A stretch of DNA of 64,000 nt from an uncultured Candidatus Melainabacteria bacterium (GTDB lineage: Bacteria; Cyanobacteriota; Vampirovibrionia; Gastranaerophilales; Gastranaerophilaceae), in NCBI GenBank assembly GCA_949927415.1, contig CATLFB010000003.1, positions 186,001-250,000 of the forward strand. Reading direction: 5' to 3'. The notes beneath the pieces were generated by a model. It ran no database searches. It was not told the origin of the DNA and saw only the letters and a program-made list of their open reading frames with translations. The translations under genes and the position numbers were made by a program. The stretch's first letter is position 1; each line of letters opens with the position of its first letter. Below, piece after piece: positions 17,995-44,469 of this stretch.

Positions 17995-18057
17995 GAGATC
18001 TCAATCATAGAAGAGGAGTTTTAATTTGTAAAAACTGAATGAATGAAAGGACTAAAT

Positions 18058-18783
18058 ATGAAACAGATTAAAACTGACAAAATTAAAGTTGTAGAACCTA
18101 TCAGGGACAAACTTGATTTAAAGCGGATTGTTGCTTGGTTTGAAAAACACAATGCCAGAAAGTATGCAGTTTTGTTTATCTTTGGGATAAATAGCGGTCT
18201 GCGTGTTTCTGACTTATTAGGCTTTGATGTTGGAGATGTTTATCATCAGAAATTCGTTGTACTTCGAGAACAGAAAACCGGCAAATATAAGAAATTCCCA
18301 TTGAAAGATGATGTTCAAGAAATTTTAAATGATTTTTGTAAAAACAGGGCTCATGACGAGCCTCTTTTTATGGGAAGATGCGGTTCTCGACTGGACCGCT
18401 CTCAAGTTTATAGATTCTTGTGCCAGGCATGTGATGATTTAGGAATTGAGGCTAATGTTGGAACGCACACAATGCGCAAGACTTTTGGATATCATCATTA
18501 TAAACAATTCAAAGATGTTGCACTTCTTCAGGCAATATTTAATCATTCTTCCCCTGAAGTTACCAAACGCTACATCGGGATCACGCAGGACGAGATAACA
18601 AATAGTTATCTGCATTTGAACCTTGAAACGTCCTCTGAAGATCTAAAAGCAATAAAAGATTCACTTAAAGGACGGACTAAAATAAAGAAAATTATTAGTT
18701 ACGTTCGAGGTTATATAAAAGCCGGCGGAACACGACACCAAGCATTTGCAGAAGATATACTTGACATAGCAGGTGTAGCATGA
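18058..18783 (+). CDS. Short tyrosine recombinase
   Basis: ATG 18058 is preferred (GAAAGGACTAAAT upstream); 241 residues. Catalytic set in order: R49 (SGLRVSD), K73/K76 (EQKTGKYK), H137 and R140 (THTMRKTFG), H163 (FNHSSPE), Y172 (TKRYIG). It lacks the N-terminal arm-binding domain of most phage integrases and has an extra 45-residue basic C-terminus. It may serve as integrase, resolvase or as the invertase of the tail-fibre cassettes at 40.7-41.8 kb (Rci-like); the last is inference. It has its own terminator. Confidence 0.88.
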   Translation: MKQIKTDKIKVVEPIRDKLDLKRIVAWFEKHNARKYAVLFIFGINSGLRVSDLLGFDVGDVYHQKFVVLREQKTGKYKKFPLKDDVQEILNDFCKNRAHDEPLFMGRCGSRLDRSQVYRFLCQACDDLGIEANVGTHTMRKTFGYHHYKQFKDVALLQAIFNHSSPEVTKRYIGITQDEITNSYLHLNLETSSEDLKAIKDSLKGRTKIKKIISYVRGYIKAGGTRHQAFAEDILDIAGVA

Positions 18784-38067: not shown

Positions 38068-39240
38068 ATGGCTGAATTAGATTTATTCGTAGTTGACGAT
38101 AACGATATTCAAGAAAAAACGACAAAATATATCGAAGGTGAACTTGATGAACCGCTATACGGCGGAGATGAAAGAAAAATATTTACAGAGGTTTTGTTAG
38201 GTTGGTATATTCAAGCACTTGTAAAGCTAAATGAATTATTTAACCAAAGGTTTGCACAATATGCTCATGGAGAGATTTTAGATGCACATGGTATTAATGA
38301 AGGCTGCGAACGTTTGCAATCTAAAAAATCTACATCAACAGAGCGTTTTATTATTTCTGTACCATTAAGTTTTAATGTGGTTATTCCAAAAGGTACACGT
38401 GTAACCGGTGATAATAACAAATATTTTGCAACAGATGTTGTCGCTGTTATTTATGCAGGTGAAACAAGTGTAGATGTAAAAATTTCTGCAGAAAAAGGCG
38501 GCGCAGCTTATAATGGTTATACTGCCGGACAATTAAACAAATTGGTCGATAAAATTGAATTTATTTCAGAAGTAACAAACCTTACAAATACAACCGGAGG
38601 GGACGATGGAGAACCTTACCCGGAAATTGATGGCGGAATCGGTGATAAACATTACTATGAAAGAATCAGATTAAGCAAAGCCACAAAATCTACTGCCGGA
38701 GCAGAAGAAACTTATAAATATTACGCGAAATCTGCTGATCCGAGAATATCAGATGTTTATGTATCCAGTCCGGAGGCCGGTTATATAAGCCTATCGGTTG
38801 CTTGCACAGACGGAACCAAAGCGGATGAGGCACTTTTAAATAAAGTCCTTGCTACTTGTAATGCAAAGGAAGTTCGACCGTTGGGTGATAAATTAACAGC
38901 TTCAGCAATATCGCAACTTGAATATGATATTGAGTTTAAATATTACACAACTCAAGCAGAAGAAAGTGCTGTAGTATCTGAACTTGAAGATGCCGGCGGG
39001 TCTATTGAAAGATATAATGAGTGGCAGGCTGCAGAAATTGGAAGAGCAATAAATCCTGACAGACTAAGGGCAGAAATTCTTAAATCGGACACTAAAGCGA
39101 TCGGAGCAGAACGAGTCGATATAGTTAAACCGATTTATACTAAACTTGCAGAGGGGCAAATTGCTAAATGGAGTGGTAATATTAAAGTAAGCCACGAAGT
39201 TGTTGATGGAAAAACTATTGCGCAAAATGGAGATTCATAA
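38068..39240 (+). CDS. Baseplate J-like protein (gpJ)
   Basis: 390 residues. RFAQYAHGEILDAHGINEGC, IISVPLSFNVVIPKGTRVTG, GAAYNGYTAGQLNKLVDKIE and YYERIRLSKATKSTAGAEET, DVYVSSPEAGYISLSVAC are the core of the gpJ/gp47 family. Builds the wedge arms of the baseplate. One-base overlap with gpI gene. Confidence 0.95.
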   Translation: MAELDLFVVDDNDIQEKTTKYIEGELDEPLYGGDERKIFTEVLLGWYIQALVKLNELFNQRFAQYAHGEILDAHGINEGCERLQSKKSTSTERFIISVPLSFNVVIPKGTRVTGDNNKYFATDVVAVIYAGETSVDVKISAEKGGAAYNGYTAGQLNKLVDKIEFISEVTNLTNTTGGDDGEPYPEIDGGIGDKHYYERIRLSKATKSTAGAEETYKYYAKSADPRISDVYVSSPEAGYISLSVACTDGTKADEALLNKVLATCNAKEVRPLGDKLTASAISQLEYDIEFKYYTTQAEESAVVSELEDAGGSIERYNEWQAAEIGRAINPDRLRAEILKSDTKAIGAERVDIVKPIYTKLAEGQIAKWSGNIKVSHEVVDGKTIAQNGDS

Positions 39241-39800
39241 TGAAATTAGAAGATGTCGATTTGCTGAAAATGTTACCTTCATTCATGAAAGAAGATAAAT
39301 TTGACCGACTACTTGCTATTGCAATGAGTAATTTATTCAGAACTTGGGAGCTTGATAGTCGCCGAGCCGTAATTGTTGGTCAAATAGACTATCTGACAGA
39401 GGGTGAATTGGACCAATTAGCGAAAGATCAGAATATATTTTGGTATCAATATTTTGCGCCGATTCAGATAAAACGTGCCGTTATAAAAGAGGCTCCGCTT
39501 GTATTTAATCGTTTAGGTACTGTGTGGGCAGTTGAAAGAGTAATGAACCAGTATTTTGAAAATACCGAGTTATTTGAGTGGTTTGATTATGAAGGGGAGC
39601 CTAATCATTTCAAGTTTGAAACTTGTGATACCGAAATATTAAAATCCGATATTTATGCGTTTTTGTCAATTCTCGATAAAGTCAAACGCAAAAGTCAGTG
39701 GCTAGATGAAATATGTTTGTCATTACGTGGATATGGCACAATTTATCCGGCATTAGGAATCGTTGAAGAATCAACGGACACTTTTTATTTTATTGATTAA
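39240..39800 (+). CDS. Tail protein I (gpI)
   Basis: 186 residues. LLKMLPSFMKEDKFDRLLAI, DYLTEGELDQLAKDQNIFWY, KEAPLVFNRLGTVWAVERVM and FEWFDYEGEPNHFKFET match P2 gpI, the baseplate periphery protein to which fibres attach. The gene before (gpJ) and after (gpH-like) confirm it. Confidence 0.9.
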   Translation: MKLEDVDLLKMLPSFMKEDKFDRLLAIAMSNLFRTWELDSRRAVIVGQIDYLTEGELDQLAKDQNIFWYQYFAPIQIKRAVIKEAPLVFNRLGTVWAVERVMNQYFENTELFEWFDYEGEPNHFKFETCDTEILKSDIYAFLSILDKVKRKSQWLDEICLSLRGYGTIYPALGIVEESTDTFYFID

Positions 39801-39813
39801 TACAGGAGGGAAA

Positions 39814-40491
39814 ATGGCTGAAGCATATGTAAACTTTACCTTAACAGCACAGGGTGAAGCGATAATGGCACGTGTCATTGCAGGGTTAGATATTACTTTT
39901 AAACGTATCGCAATTGGTGATGGTTATGATTACGATACAGAAAATTTTAAAAACAAAACAGAATTGGTAAATGAAGTCAAGTCGTTAGATAACTTAACGA
40001 TGCAAATTGTTGGTGATAACCAGGTTGAACTTGCTGCCAAATTCGGGAAAACAGATATTACAAGTTCGTTTTGGTTTAGAGAACTTGGCATTTATATCAT
40101 TGACCCGGATAATCCTGAAGGTGAGATTTTATATGGCTATGGCAATATGAATGATAAATGCCAATATATAACTCCGGATATTGCAAATTACGGAGTGCTT
40201 AAGAACATTAAGGCATACGTTAAGGTTGGTAATAGCGCAAATGTAAATATTTATATTACAACTTCTCAAACCGCTACTGAAATTACATTCAAGCAGGCTG
40301 ACTGGGTTCTTGATAATGTAAGCGGACTATATTCTCTACCTTTGGGAGCAGTTCAAGAAGTTATAAAAGTATTTAAAACAACTGAAATCGGTAGAATTGA
40401 TACGGCGCTTGTCGATATTATTCATAGCGCGTCCGGAATTACGACTTTAAGATCGCTTATCGGATTTGACGGATGCGCAATTGCAATTTAA
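39814..40491 (+). CDS. Tail-collar fibre protein (gpH N-terminal type)
   Basis: ATG 39814 after TACAGGAGGGAAA; 225 residues. AYVNFTLTAQGEAIMARVIA, FKRIAIGDGYDYD and SSFWFRELGIYIIDPDNPEG are the tail-collar fibre (DUF3751-like) N-terminal domain that plugs into gpI. It ends early (GFDGCAIAI) without a long fibre shaft; the following gene gives the distal part, so the fibre is split in two genes. Confidence 0.85.
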   Translation: MAEAYVNFTLTAQGEAIMARVIAGLDITFKRIAIGDGYDYDTENFKNKTELVNEVKSLDNLTMQIVGDNQVELAAKFGKTDITSSFWFRELGIYIIDPDNPEGEILYGYGNMNDKCQYITPDIANYGVLKNIKAYVKVGNSANVNIYITTSQTATEITFKQADWVLDNVSGLYSLPLGAVQEVIKVFKTTEIGRIDTALVDIIHSASGITTLRSLIGFDGCAIAI

Positions 40492-40512: not shown

Positions 40513-41019
40513 ATGACTTTAAATAATTTATTAGGTGATGAATGTCCGACAGAAATTGCTCAATTAATTAATGCAATAATTGCACAAAAAGCGACAAATT
40601 CGTTAGATAATTTAGATGCTGCAGGGCAGAAAAAATTTACTGATTTAGCGAATGCAATAACCAATGTAAACGACCTTGTAACGGCACTTCAAGCCCTGGT
40701 TAATACTAAGCTGAGTGCAGAGGCTTTGCTCGAACAAAATGGATACATCAAATTTAGTAATGGGTTGATTTTAATTTGGGGAGTAGTTCAATTGCCGGTT
40801 AACGGTGTAGCGTATGATGTTGTAATGCCAGTAAGTATCAATTTTGGAATGGCTGGTTTTTGTACACCATATTCTGCTGATATCCCTGATATAGTTATTT
40901 GTCCTTATTGTACAGGGTTTACCCGAACTTCAATAAAAATAACATACGATTATGAAACAGGGCATGCGTATAAAGGTACAGGAACAAATCTTGTTTCTTG
41001 GCTTGCAATTGCAATTTAA
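40513..41019 (+). CDS. Distal tail fibre with variable tip (expressed version)
   Basis: ATG 40513 after AAGAGGTATAAA; 168 residues. Short coil (LDAAGQKKFTDLANAITNVN), then the tip GYIKFSNGLILIWGVVQLP and the end SWLAIAI. The box FSNG-I--WG is the start of many phage fibre tips that bind receptors. The same box begins each of the downstream promoterless tips, so this is the currently expressed member of a cassette set. Confidence 0.82.
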   Translation: MTLNNLLGDECPTEIAQLINAIIAQKATNSLDNLDAAGQKKFTDLANAITNVNDLVTALQALVNTKLSAEALLEQNGYIKFSNGLILIWGVVQLPVNGVAYDVVMPVSINFGMAGFCTPYSADIPDIVICPYCTGFTRTSIKITYDYETGHAYKGTGTNLVSWLAIAI

Positions 41020-41272
41020 CTTCATTAAAATTAGTAATAAAATGATTATACAATGGGGTATTGCAAATTATTCGACTTTAGTAAGCCAAGCAGTATTCCC
41101 AATATCATTTACAAACCTGAATTATGTTGCTATAGTGACCGCTATAATAGAAGATTCAAGTAATGCTTTTACTAGGGGATTTTTATTTCAACATAAAAGT
41201 CTTACAGGTTGTTTATTTAGAGCTAGTGAAAATGGTGGCCCAGCTTCAATGTGGCTCGCGATAGGTAATTAG
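41020..41272 (+). other. Silent tail-fibre tip cassette 2
   Basis: Open frame without start or ribosome site directly behind the fibre gene. FIKISNKMIIQWGIANYSTL ... GPASMWLAIGN. It aligns with the expressed tip from IK-[FI]-SN onward and ends W-LAI-. TTAGTAAT at 41031-41038. Confidence 0.75.
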
Positions 41273-41546
41273 TAATTTAGAATCATAATTAGTAATAATA
41301 TTATAATTTTATGGGTTCATAATAGTGGGACAGAAACATATGCTACAAAACGATTAACATTTCCTATTACTTTAAATAATATATATGGCGTATGTTCAAG
41401 TGGCGGGTTGAATCCAAGTGTTTTTACATCCACCTCAAATGCAACATTACGAGTAGTTTCAACATCCGCGTATAGTAGTATAGACAATAGTAGTATTACA
41501 ATACAAAATGCAAACACGCACTACATAATCGTTATTGGTTCATAGA
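41273..41546 (+). other. Silent tail-fibre tip cassette 3
   Basis: Open frame without start: RIIISNNIIILWVHNSG, RLTFPITLNNIYGVCSSG ... THYIIVIGS. Aligns with the other tips at the SN-II--W box. TTAGTAAT occurs twice, at 41269-41276 (covering the stop of cassette 2) and 41289-41296. Confidence 0.72.
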
Positions 41547-41627
41547 TTTAGTAATGGTGTAATTTTACAGTGTGGTTATGTTAGTTGATCATGGAATTTT
41601 GGGAGCATTCTGGTTTTCGATAGCCTA
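41547..41627 (+). other. Truncated tip cassette 4
   Basis: RFSNGVILQCGYVS then a stop: only the first 14 residues of a tip remain before the inverted cassette starts. TTAGTAAT at 41549-41556. Looks like a recombination junction. Confidence 0.55.
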
Positions 41628-41846
41628 TTAATAACCAATTGCAATCCATTCTACATTAGAAGTAGCTCCCTTGCTACAAAAATTTAATTTAGTATCAGCT
41701 CTAGATACTAAAATTTGACTATTTAAACCGGATGCAACTAGCGACCATAAATGAGTCGGCATAATCGGTAAGTAATAAACAGTCCAAGTTGTGGGAACAT
41801 CTTTTATAAATCCCCACTGCAAACACATCAAATTACTAAGCAAGAT
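41628..41846 (-). other. Inverted tail-fibre tip cassette 5
   Basis: On the minus strand: ILLSNLMCLQWGFIKDVPTT ... ATSNVEWIAIGY, an intact tip in the opposite orientation. Its TTAGTAAT (complement of 41832-41839) begins the frame as in the + cassettes. Inversion with a + copy would place it behind the fibre gene. Confidence 0.78.
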
Positions 41847-41871: not shown

Positions 41872-42543
41872 ATGAATTATTATTATGGACTAGTTGATGC
41901 AATTAACAACGGTTGGGGATTTGTTGAAGAAACAGATTCAAGAGTGCAGCCTGGTTTTATAAAATTAACCCGCCAAGAATGGATTAACTTATTAAATGAA
42001 CAATCCGCAGGAAACGAGATTGTATGCTTTGACGGCAAAGTTTTTACAACTCCGGAACGTGGCAGATATTACTGTGATGCTGAAGGCTGGCATAAGAAAA
42101 CCGACGAAATATATTTCAAAGAAAAAGCTGAAGCTAAACAATCGGAATTGATTAATACTACTTACAAAATAAAAGCAGATAAAGCCTATAAAGGTGTAAT
42201 TATCAACGACTCATTTATTTTTGAAACGACAAAAGAGGCAATGTCAACGACTATTGCAACTTTGGCACTCTTAGATGAAGATGATACGACTAACTGGAAA
42301 TTTTATAACATCCAAGGAGAGCCGGTTGTTCAAAAGGTTACAAAATTACAGATTGCTGCAATTGCAAAATTAGGCAGAAAAATGATTGATAAATGTTTTG
42401 AAATTGAAGGTAATTACAACGAAATTATTAAATCTGCAACAATATCAAATTTGAATAACGATGCTTGGGCCAAAAATATTATTAATAAAATGCAGAACGA
42501 AATGGACCAAGTAAATAACAAGATAGAATTAACGTTATTATAG
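41872..42543 (+). CDS. Tail fibre assembly protein-like (DUF4376-type)
   Basis: ATG 41872 after AAAGAGAGGTAAAATTT; 223 residues. N-terminal YYYGLVDAINNGWGFVEETD, central YKIKADKAYKGVIINDSFIF and the helical end AIAKLGRKMIDKCFEIEGNY resemble phage proteins with DUF4376-like C-termini that follow tail fibres and act as fibre chaperones. It sits just beyond the cassette array, as fibre-assembly genes do in Mu and P1. Confidence 0.65.
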   Translation: MNYYYGLVDAINNGWGFVEETDSRVQPGFIKLTRQEWINLLNEQSAGNEIVCFDGKVFTTPERGRYYCDAEGWHKKTDEIYFKEKAEAKQSELINTTYKIKADKAYKGVIINDSFIFETTKEAMSTTIATLALLDEDDTTNWKFYNIQGEPVVQKVTKLQIAAIAKLGRKMIDKCFEIEGNYNEIIKSATISNLNNDAWAKNIINKMQNEMDQVNNKIELTLL

Positions 42544-44232: not shown

Positions 44233-44469
44233 TTAAGCAATTTTATTTCTAACCATGTTAAGTAGAAGAATATTATCAGGATTATTAAAAAGTGTTTCCA
44301 GATTTTCTTTATAGTATTGTAAAAATTTTTCGTTTGGTATAGTATTATTTTTAGTGGTAAGGGCGGGTTCGGACTTTGTCCTAGTCTCCGCCCCATTTAC
44401 ACAAATTGCCTCTACGGAGGCTTTTTTGTTAGGAACAATGCGGGTCTCGAGGGTTCTAACATTATCCAA
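44233..44469 (-). other. Repeat-like region with doubtful ORF and hairpins
   Basis: A 78-codon minus frame begins at TTG without ribosome site (KKASVEAICVNGAETRTKSE). The DNA below it is structured: GGGCGG-GTTC-GGAC / GTCC-TAGTCT-CCGCCC (44361-44393) and GCCTC/GAGGC plus six T (44408-44427), a + strand terminator. I read it as a dispersed structured repeat more than a gene. Confidence 0.35.

Follow-up and report, generated by a model that had tools for sequence, protein, structure and literature searches.

The window, the whole stretch of 64,000 nucleotides that was analysed, carries an array of alternative tail-fibre tips behind an expressed fibre gene. The array is real and non-random, and its most likely role is that of a tip switch, active now or until recently; the mechanism is one which we infer from the arrangement of its parts. 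We judge it moderately probable that the array serves as a tip-switching cassette of the Rin type, in which a site-specific recombinase would act at the 8-bp core TTAGTAAT. A first-pass annotation had described a shufflon-like layout at this place, and with some corrections this observation holds: behind the expressed tip lie three intact orphan tips and one tip fragment, one tip being inverted. The reading given to that layout, a shufflon of alternative tips, is still the best-supported one.

The prophage and its array of fibre tips

The array lies in a prophage of about 47.6 kb, which covers window positions 1-44,398 and is situated in contig C3 of a 2.2 Mb genome; this contig is 355 kb long and the tip locus is internal to it. 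The left end of the prophage is just outside the window, at the 3' end of a tRNA-His gene and beside the integrase gene, and the right end is marked on the plus strand by the att core CGCCCCATTT (44389-44398), which is common to both prophage ends and whose left copy follows the tRNA-His gene outside the window. In the sister species G011 the attachment site is empty and both flanks are joined. The integrase at tRNA-His is a 517-aa serine recombinase, distinct from the tyrosine recombinase encoded at 18043-18783. TerD-like and TerC-like genes were also recognised by eye within the prophage (883-2325).

Upstream of the fibre gene, in the tail module, are the genes for a putative baseplate protein (38068-39240; assigned from its position and relatives), a P2 gpI-like protein (39240-39800) and, directly before the fibre gene, a collar-fibre protein (39814-40491). 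The fibre gene itself (40513-41019, plus strand) encodes 168 aa, gives PHROG tail fibre matches and consists of a constant N-terminal part (about 40513-40752) followed by tip1 (40753-41019). Behind it on the plus strand are tip2 (41024-41272), which is intact, tip3 (41282-41545), intact and without a start codon, and tip4 (41547-41588), a fragment ending at an in-frame TGA. They are followed by the intact tip5, which is inverted and is read on the minus strand from 41840 to 41628; an inverted tip on the opposite strand had been reported here before, at 41628-41846. The right border of the array is formed by a plus-strand gene of 223 aa (41872-42543) with a weak PHROG tail-fibre match, which does not encode a recombinase.

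The curated cut-off of the Pfam family PF21882 (Gp53-like_C) was passed by tip2 only (E 4e-10); tips 1, 3 and 5 matched it weakly (E 0.006, 0.08 and 0.02, respectively), the below-cut-off match of tip1 covering residues 80-166 (E 0.0056). With a profile built from the tips of other genomes, from which the window's tips were excluded, tips 2, 5 and 3 ranked above all of 2000 shuffles, and tip1 fell within the range of its 2000 shuffles. Tip2 is clearly a Gp53-like_C domain, and the other tips probably belong to the same tip family. The structure of tip5 was predicted to be a six-stranded beta domain with moderate confidence (pLDDT 78), and the model gave weak matches to phage tail-fibre proteins; a fold search with it against PDB returned no informative match.

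The intact tips are mutually 25-32% identical. The intact orphan frames of tip2, tip3 and tip5 are 80, 85 and 70 codons long, and the chance of an open frame in shuffled sequence is 0.001, 0.0005 and 0.004, respectively. The orphan tips had been called promoterless and start-less. Promoter-like matches are no more numerous than expected by chance; the lack of a start is true of tip3, whereas tips 2 and 5 hold ATG/TTG codons, but only out of context. No terminator-like site was found at the tip locus. The motif proposed for the tips, beginning with [FI]SN and ending in W-[IL]AI-[GA], has to be widened, for tip5 starts with LSN and tip3 ends in YIIVIG and not in the W form.

The 8-bp core and the proposed exchange

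Six copies of TTAGTAAT are present in the window. The first is in the fibre gene at the start of tip1 (40754-40761), and those of tip2, tip3 and tip4 are at 41031-41038, 41289-41296 and 41548-41555, all on the plus strand; that of tip5 is on the minus strand at 41832-41839. The sixth, an extra plus-strand copy at 41269-41276, overlaps the stop codon of tip2 and is not at a tip start. The positions given by the first-pass annotation agree with these for tips 1, 2, 3 and 5; its copy at 41549 is really at 41548, and the one at 41269 had been missed. The total is not elevated over the chance mean of 5.1 calculated for the 64 kb from composition, and all six copies are confined to 1,086 bp at the tip locus, with none elsewhere in the window. 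Five of the six occupy the homologous Ser-Asn codons of the five tips, one of them on the opposite strand. The codon phase of the core is identical in these five tips (xTT AGT AAT); therefore, an exchange within the core keeps the reading frame. From stop codon to next core the distance is 11 bp for tip1 and 2 bp for tip3, and for tip2 the two either overlap or are 16 bp apart.

Around the four intact cores the flanking sequence is dyad-symmetric, with 7-bp arms that are 14 bp apart, which was matched by 14 of 2000 joint column permutations. Since this symmetry was tested post hoc and a different configuration comes out best once tip4 is included, it is only suggestive.

In the exchange that we propose, the fibre gene would encode the constant shaft together with the tip currently displayed, and spare Gp53-like tips would be stored behind it, packed as core, tip, stop and core, three in the same orientation (one of them the fragment) and one inverted. 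A site-specific recombinase would cross over within TTAGTAAT. Inversion between the core at 40754 and that at 41832-41839 would place tip5 on the fibre and turn the other tips over, and exchange between direct cores would join tip2 or tip3 to the fibre with loss of the preceding tip; every product of exchange at the tip cores would stay in frame. The enzyme would be the arm-less tyrosine recombinase encoded at 18043-18783, or else one of its host paralogues, working in trans. Tentatively, the locus may be described as an 8-bp-core, multi-tip shufflon, both invertible and excisable, that is run in trans by an unlinked tyrosine recombinase consisting of a catalytic domain only, possibly one of the seven host and prophage paralogues. 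If the switch works, the dormant virus could probably change the host surface that it grips, in a way similar to switches already described for phages of other gut bacteria.

Candidate recombinase and related loci in other genomes

The sole candidate for the tip sites in the prophage is a small tyrosine recombinase of 246 aa, encoded on the plus strand at 18043-18783, 22 kb upstream of the tip array. It consists of the catalytic domain only (PF00589, E 6e-22), and XerC/D-like and invertase profiles match just this catalytic part; the protein is arm-less. No recombinase flanks the tip array, whose neighbours are tail genes, and the prophage contains no small serine invertase, its sole PF00239 gene being that of the 517-aa integrase. 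Six paralogues of the candidate with 43-51% identity are found elsewhere in the genome; the seven catalytic-domain-only copies in G000 are distributed over C1, C5, C6, C8 and the window (18043-18783), and one paralogue adjoins an HsdM-like gene. The family is present in 138 of 191 related genomes; therefore, its presence in the prophage is not strong evidence. Its members are mostly not beside inverted repeats, and an association of the widespread family with tip arrays by gene neighbourhood failed. Around the two-tip loci of G111, G026 and G059, described below, the stretches read contained no small tyrosine recombinase.

About 78 Gp53-like loci were read in the same bacterial order, and more than two tips in one array were present only at the window locus. 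Two-tip inverted pairs with longer repeats were observed in three prophages of the same bacterial family. At G111:C1 (L036, 9637-10111), two tail-to-tail Gp53-like tips share, at the homologous codons GNGIILQWG, an inverted repeat that is perfect over 29 bp; this pair is likely an invertible fibre tip in another prophage, and a search for orientation variants of it found none. G059:C24 (L037, 8619-9950) holds a tail-to-tail tip pair with 14-17 bp repeats; three ATAATATCTATTAT-like sites, possible recombinase sites, were noticed around the two opposed tips. At G026:C14 (L048, 8376-9601), a 92-bp perfect inverted repeat encloses a different alternative tip together with an additional gene of the downstream type, and the inverted segment resembles the Mu G segment. 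All three loci resemble the window locus in that an alternative tip, inverted, stands between the fibre gene and the gene following it; the tail-to-tail order is found in G111 and G059, and the repeat at homologous codons in G111. They differ from it in having two tips each and the repeat lengths given above, whereas the window locus has more tips and an 8-bp core.

Viral, phage, genus and family collections, scanned with protein and with DNA, yielded no sibling of the window fibre. The tip array is absent from the nearest relatives (L097, L074-L076), among which L097, from yak colon, has a gpI-like protein 63% identical to that of the window. In a more distant phage group, with a baseplate protein 41% identical, a diversity-generating retroelement acts on the fibre; that in L075 (7421-10961) comprises a reverse transcriptase with template and variable repeats. 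The window prophage gave no significant match to the reverse transcriptase of the related phage and has no pair of template and variable repeats, and such an element was rejected for it. A literature search on prophages of the presumed host order found nothing.

Alternative explanations and comparison with known switches

Several observations argue for a switch: the five homologous tips, one of them inverted, with identical core codons in all; the three orphan frames that are intact against the odds; the dyad symmetry of the core flanks; the presence of an arm-less tyrosine recombinase besides the serine integrase; the repeat of G111 at the same codons and the inverted tip pairs of G059 and G026; and the published Rin shufflons, whose sites, 8 and 11 bp long, lie at the starts of tips and downstream of the expressed gene (PMC6109161, PMC8778435). 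Against it are the direct orientation of three spares out of four, in which recombination would lead to deletion and not to inversion, the broken tip4, the want of a recombinase adjoining the array and the nearest relatives without a tip array. Direct and truncated spares, no adjoining recombinase and tips unlike one another would also be left by a graveyard of displaced tips, in which incoming phage tips recombined at the conserved tip start and pushed the old ones downstream to decay without any dedicated switch, as with the orphan ends behind Rhs genes. This explanation, which we consider rather unlikely, leaves an inverted intact tip unexpected from simple displacement and three frames still open against the odds, and the 8-bp common word is short for homologous recombination.

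It is improbable, and already disfavoured, that the tips are ordinary paralogues and the common word a mere product of conserved Ser-Asn codons. The word does lie within a conserved protein motif and its window total equals chance; however, under independent codon choice with the codon usage of the prophage, the other four cores would agree with the first in all three codons with a probability of 2.5e-5, and TTAGTAAT is at the homologous codons in none of 78 other distinct tips of the same bacterial order, nine Ser-Asn tips included. Moreover, the conserved WLAIG end is written with codons that differ from tip to tip. It is very improbable that the assembly merged arrangements of a real switch, so that the printed order, the tip4 fragment or the extra core is not that of a real molecule, although tip4 is truncated next to tip5 and shufflons are known to be hard for de novo assembly (PMC5430464). 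The locus is internal to the 355-kb contig, and the tips differ in sequence, unlike collapsed repeats. A swap of tips by RecA homologous recombination between repeats, for which the perfect repeats of G111 (29 bp) and G026 (92 bp) would be long enough and with which the G111 region read (about 57 kb, holding only an integrase-type recombinase) is consistent, is the least probable of all for the window, whose cores are common over 8 bp only, too short for efficient RecA recombination.

If the tip switch is active, tip shufflons with short sites would be known from phages of one more bacterial family, next to two-tip inversions and to the retroelement that acts on the fibre in more distant relatives, and this phage group would be useful for comparing ways to change a host-binding tip. 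One would then also have to ask how a small recombinase that is unlinked and widespread locates its sites without deleting direct repeats.

Among known switches, Gin/Cin of Mu/P1 and Min of p15B likewise have tail-fibre C-termini as alternatives, and Min has several. They swap them by a serine invertase, whereas the window prophage is without a small one, and their inversion sites are longer; Mu/P1, with which the locus had first been compared, is therefore a poorer comparison than the Rin shufflon, the nearest published system. The R64 shufflon (Rci, pilV) resembles the window locus in its several alternative C-termini and its tyrosine recombinase; it belongs to a plasmid pilus gene and has longer sites, and Rci adjoins its array, whereas no recombinase of any kind adjoins that of the window. 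A second inverted locus of bifidophages, with the 8-bp site CAGGGTTA, shares with the window locus the site length, dissimilar segments and the absence of a flanking recombinase; it differs in having one inverted segment only, and its inversion was seen between two prophages (PMC6109161).

The Rin shufflon is known from prophages of Bifidobacterium breve/longum (PMC6109161) and Eggerthella lenta clade 1 (PMC8778435), and its arm-less tyrosine recombinase is associated with sites of 11 and 8 bp. The combination of a short core with several tips, regarded in the first-pass annotation as distinctive, has a precedent in these shufflons, which have several tips and sites of 8-11 bp (PMC6109161, PMC8778435). 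In both Rin and the window locus, a constant fibre or RBP part is followed by several unlike C-terminal tips; a short asymmetric repeat is found within the gene, downstream of its 3' end and at every spare tip, in the window in the same frame; at least one spare tip is inverted, in the window tip5; and besides the integrase there is a separate, arm-less tyrosine recombinase. The Rin recombinase is beside the array, whereas the window candidate is 22 kb off and little more than a catalytic domain; the window locus further differs in having only one inverted spare, Gp53-like_C tips and a serine integrase, and in being known from one arrangement. Because a flanking recombinase was tested for and is absent, and no inversion was seen, we did not file the locus as a strict Rin member; judging from its layout, it probably works like Rin.
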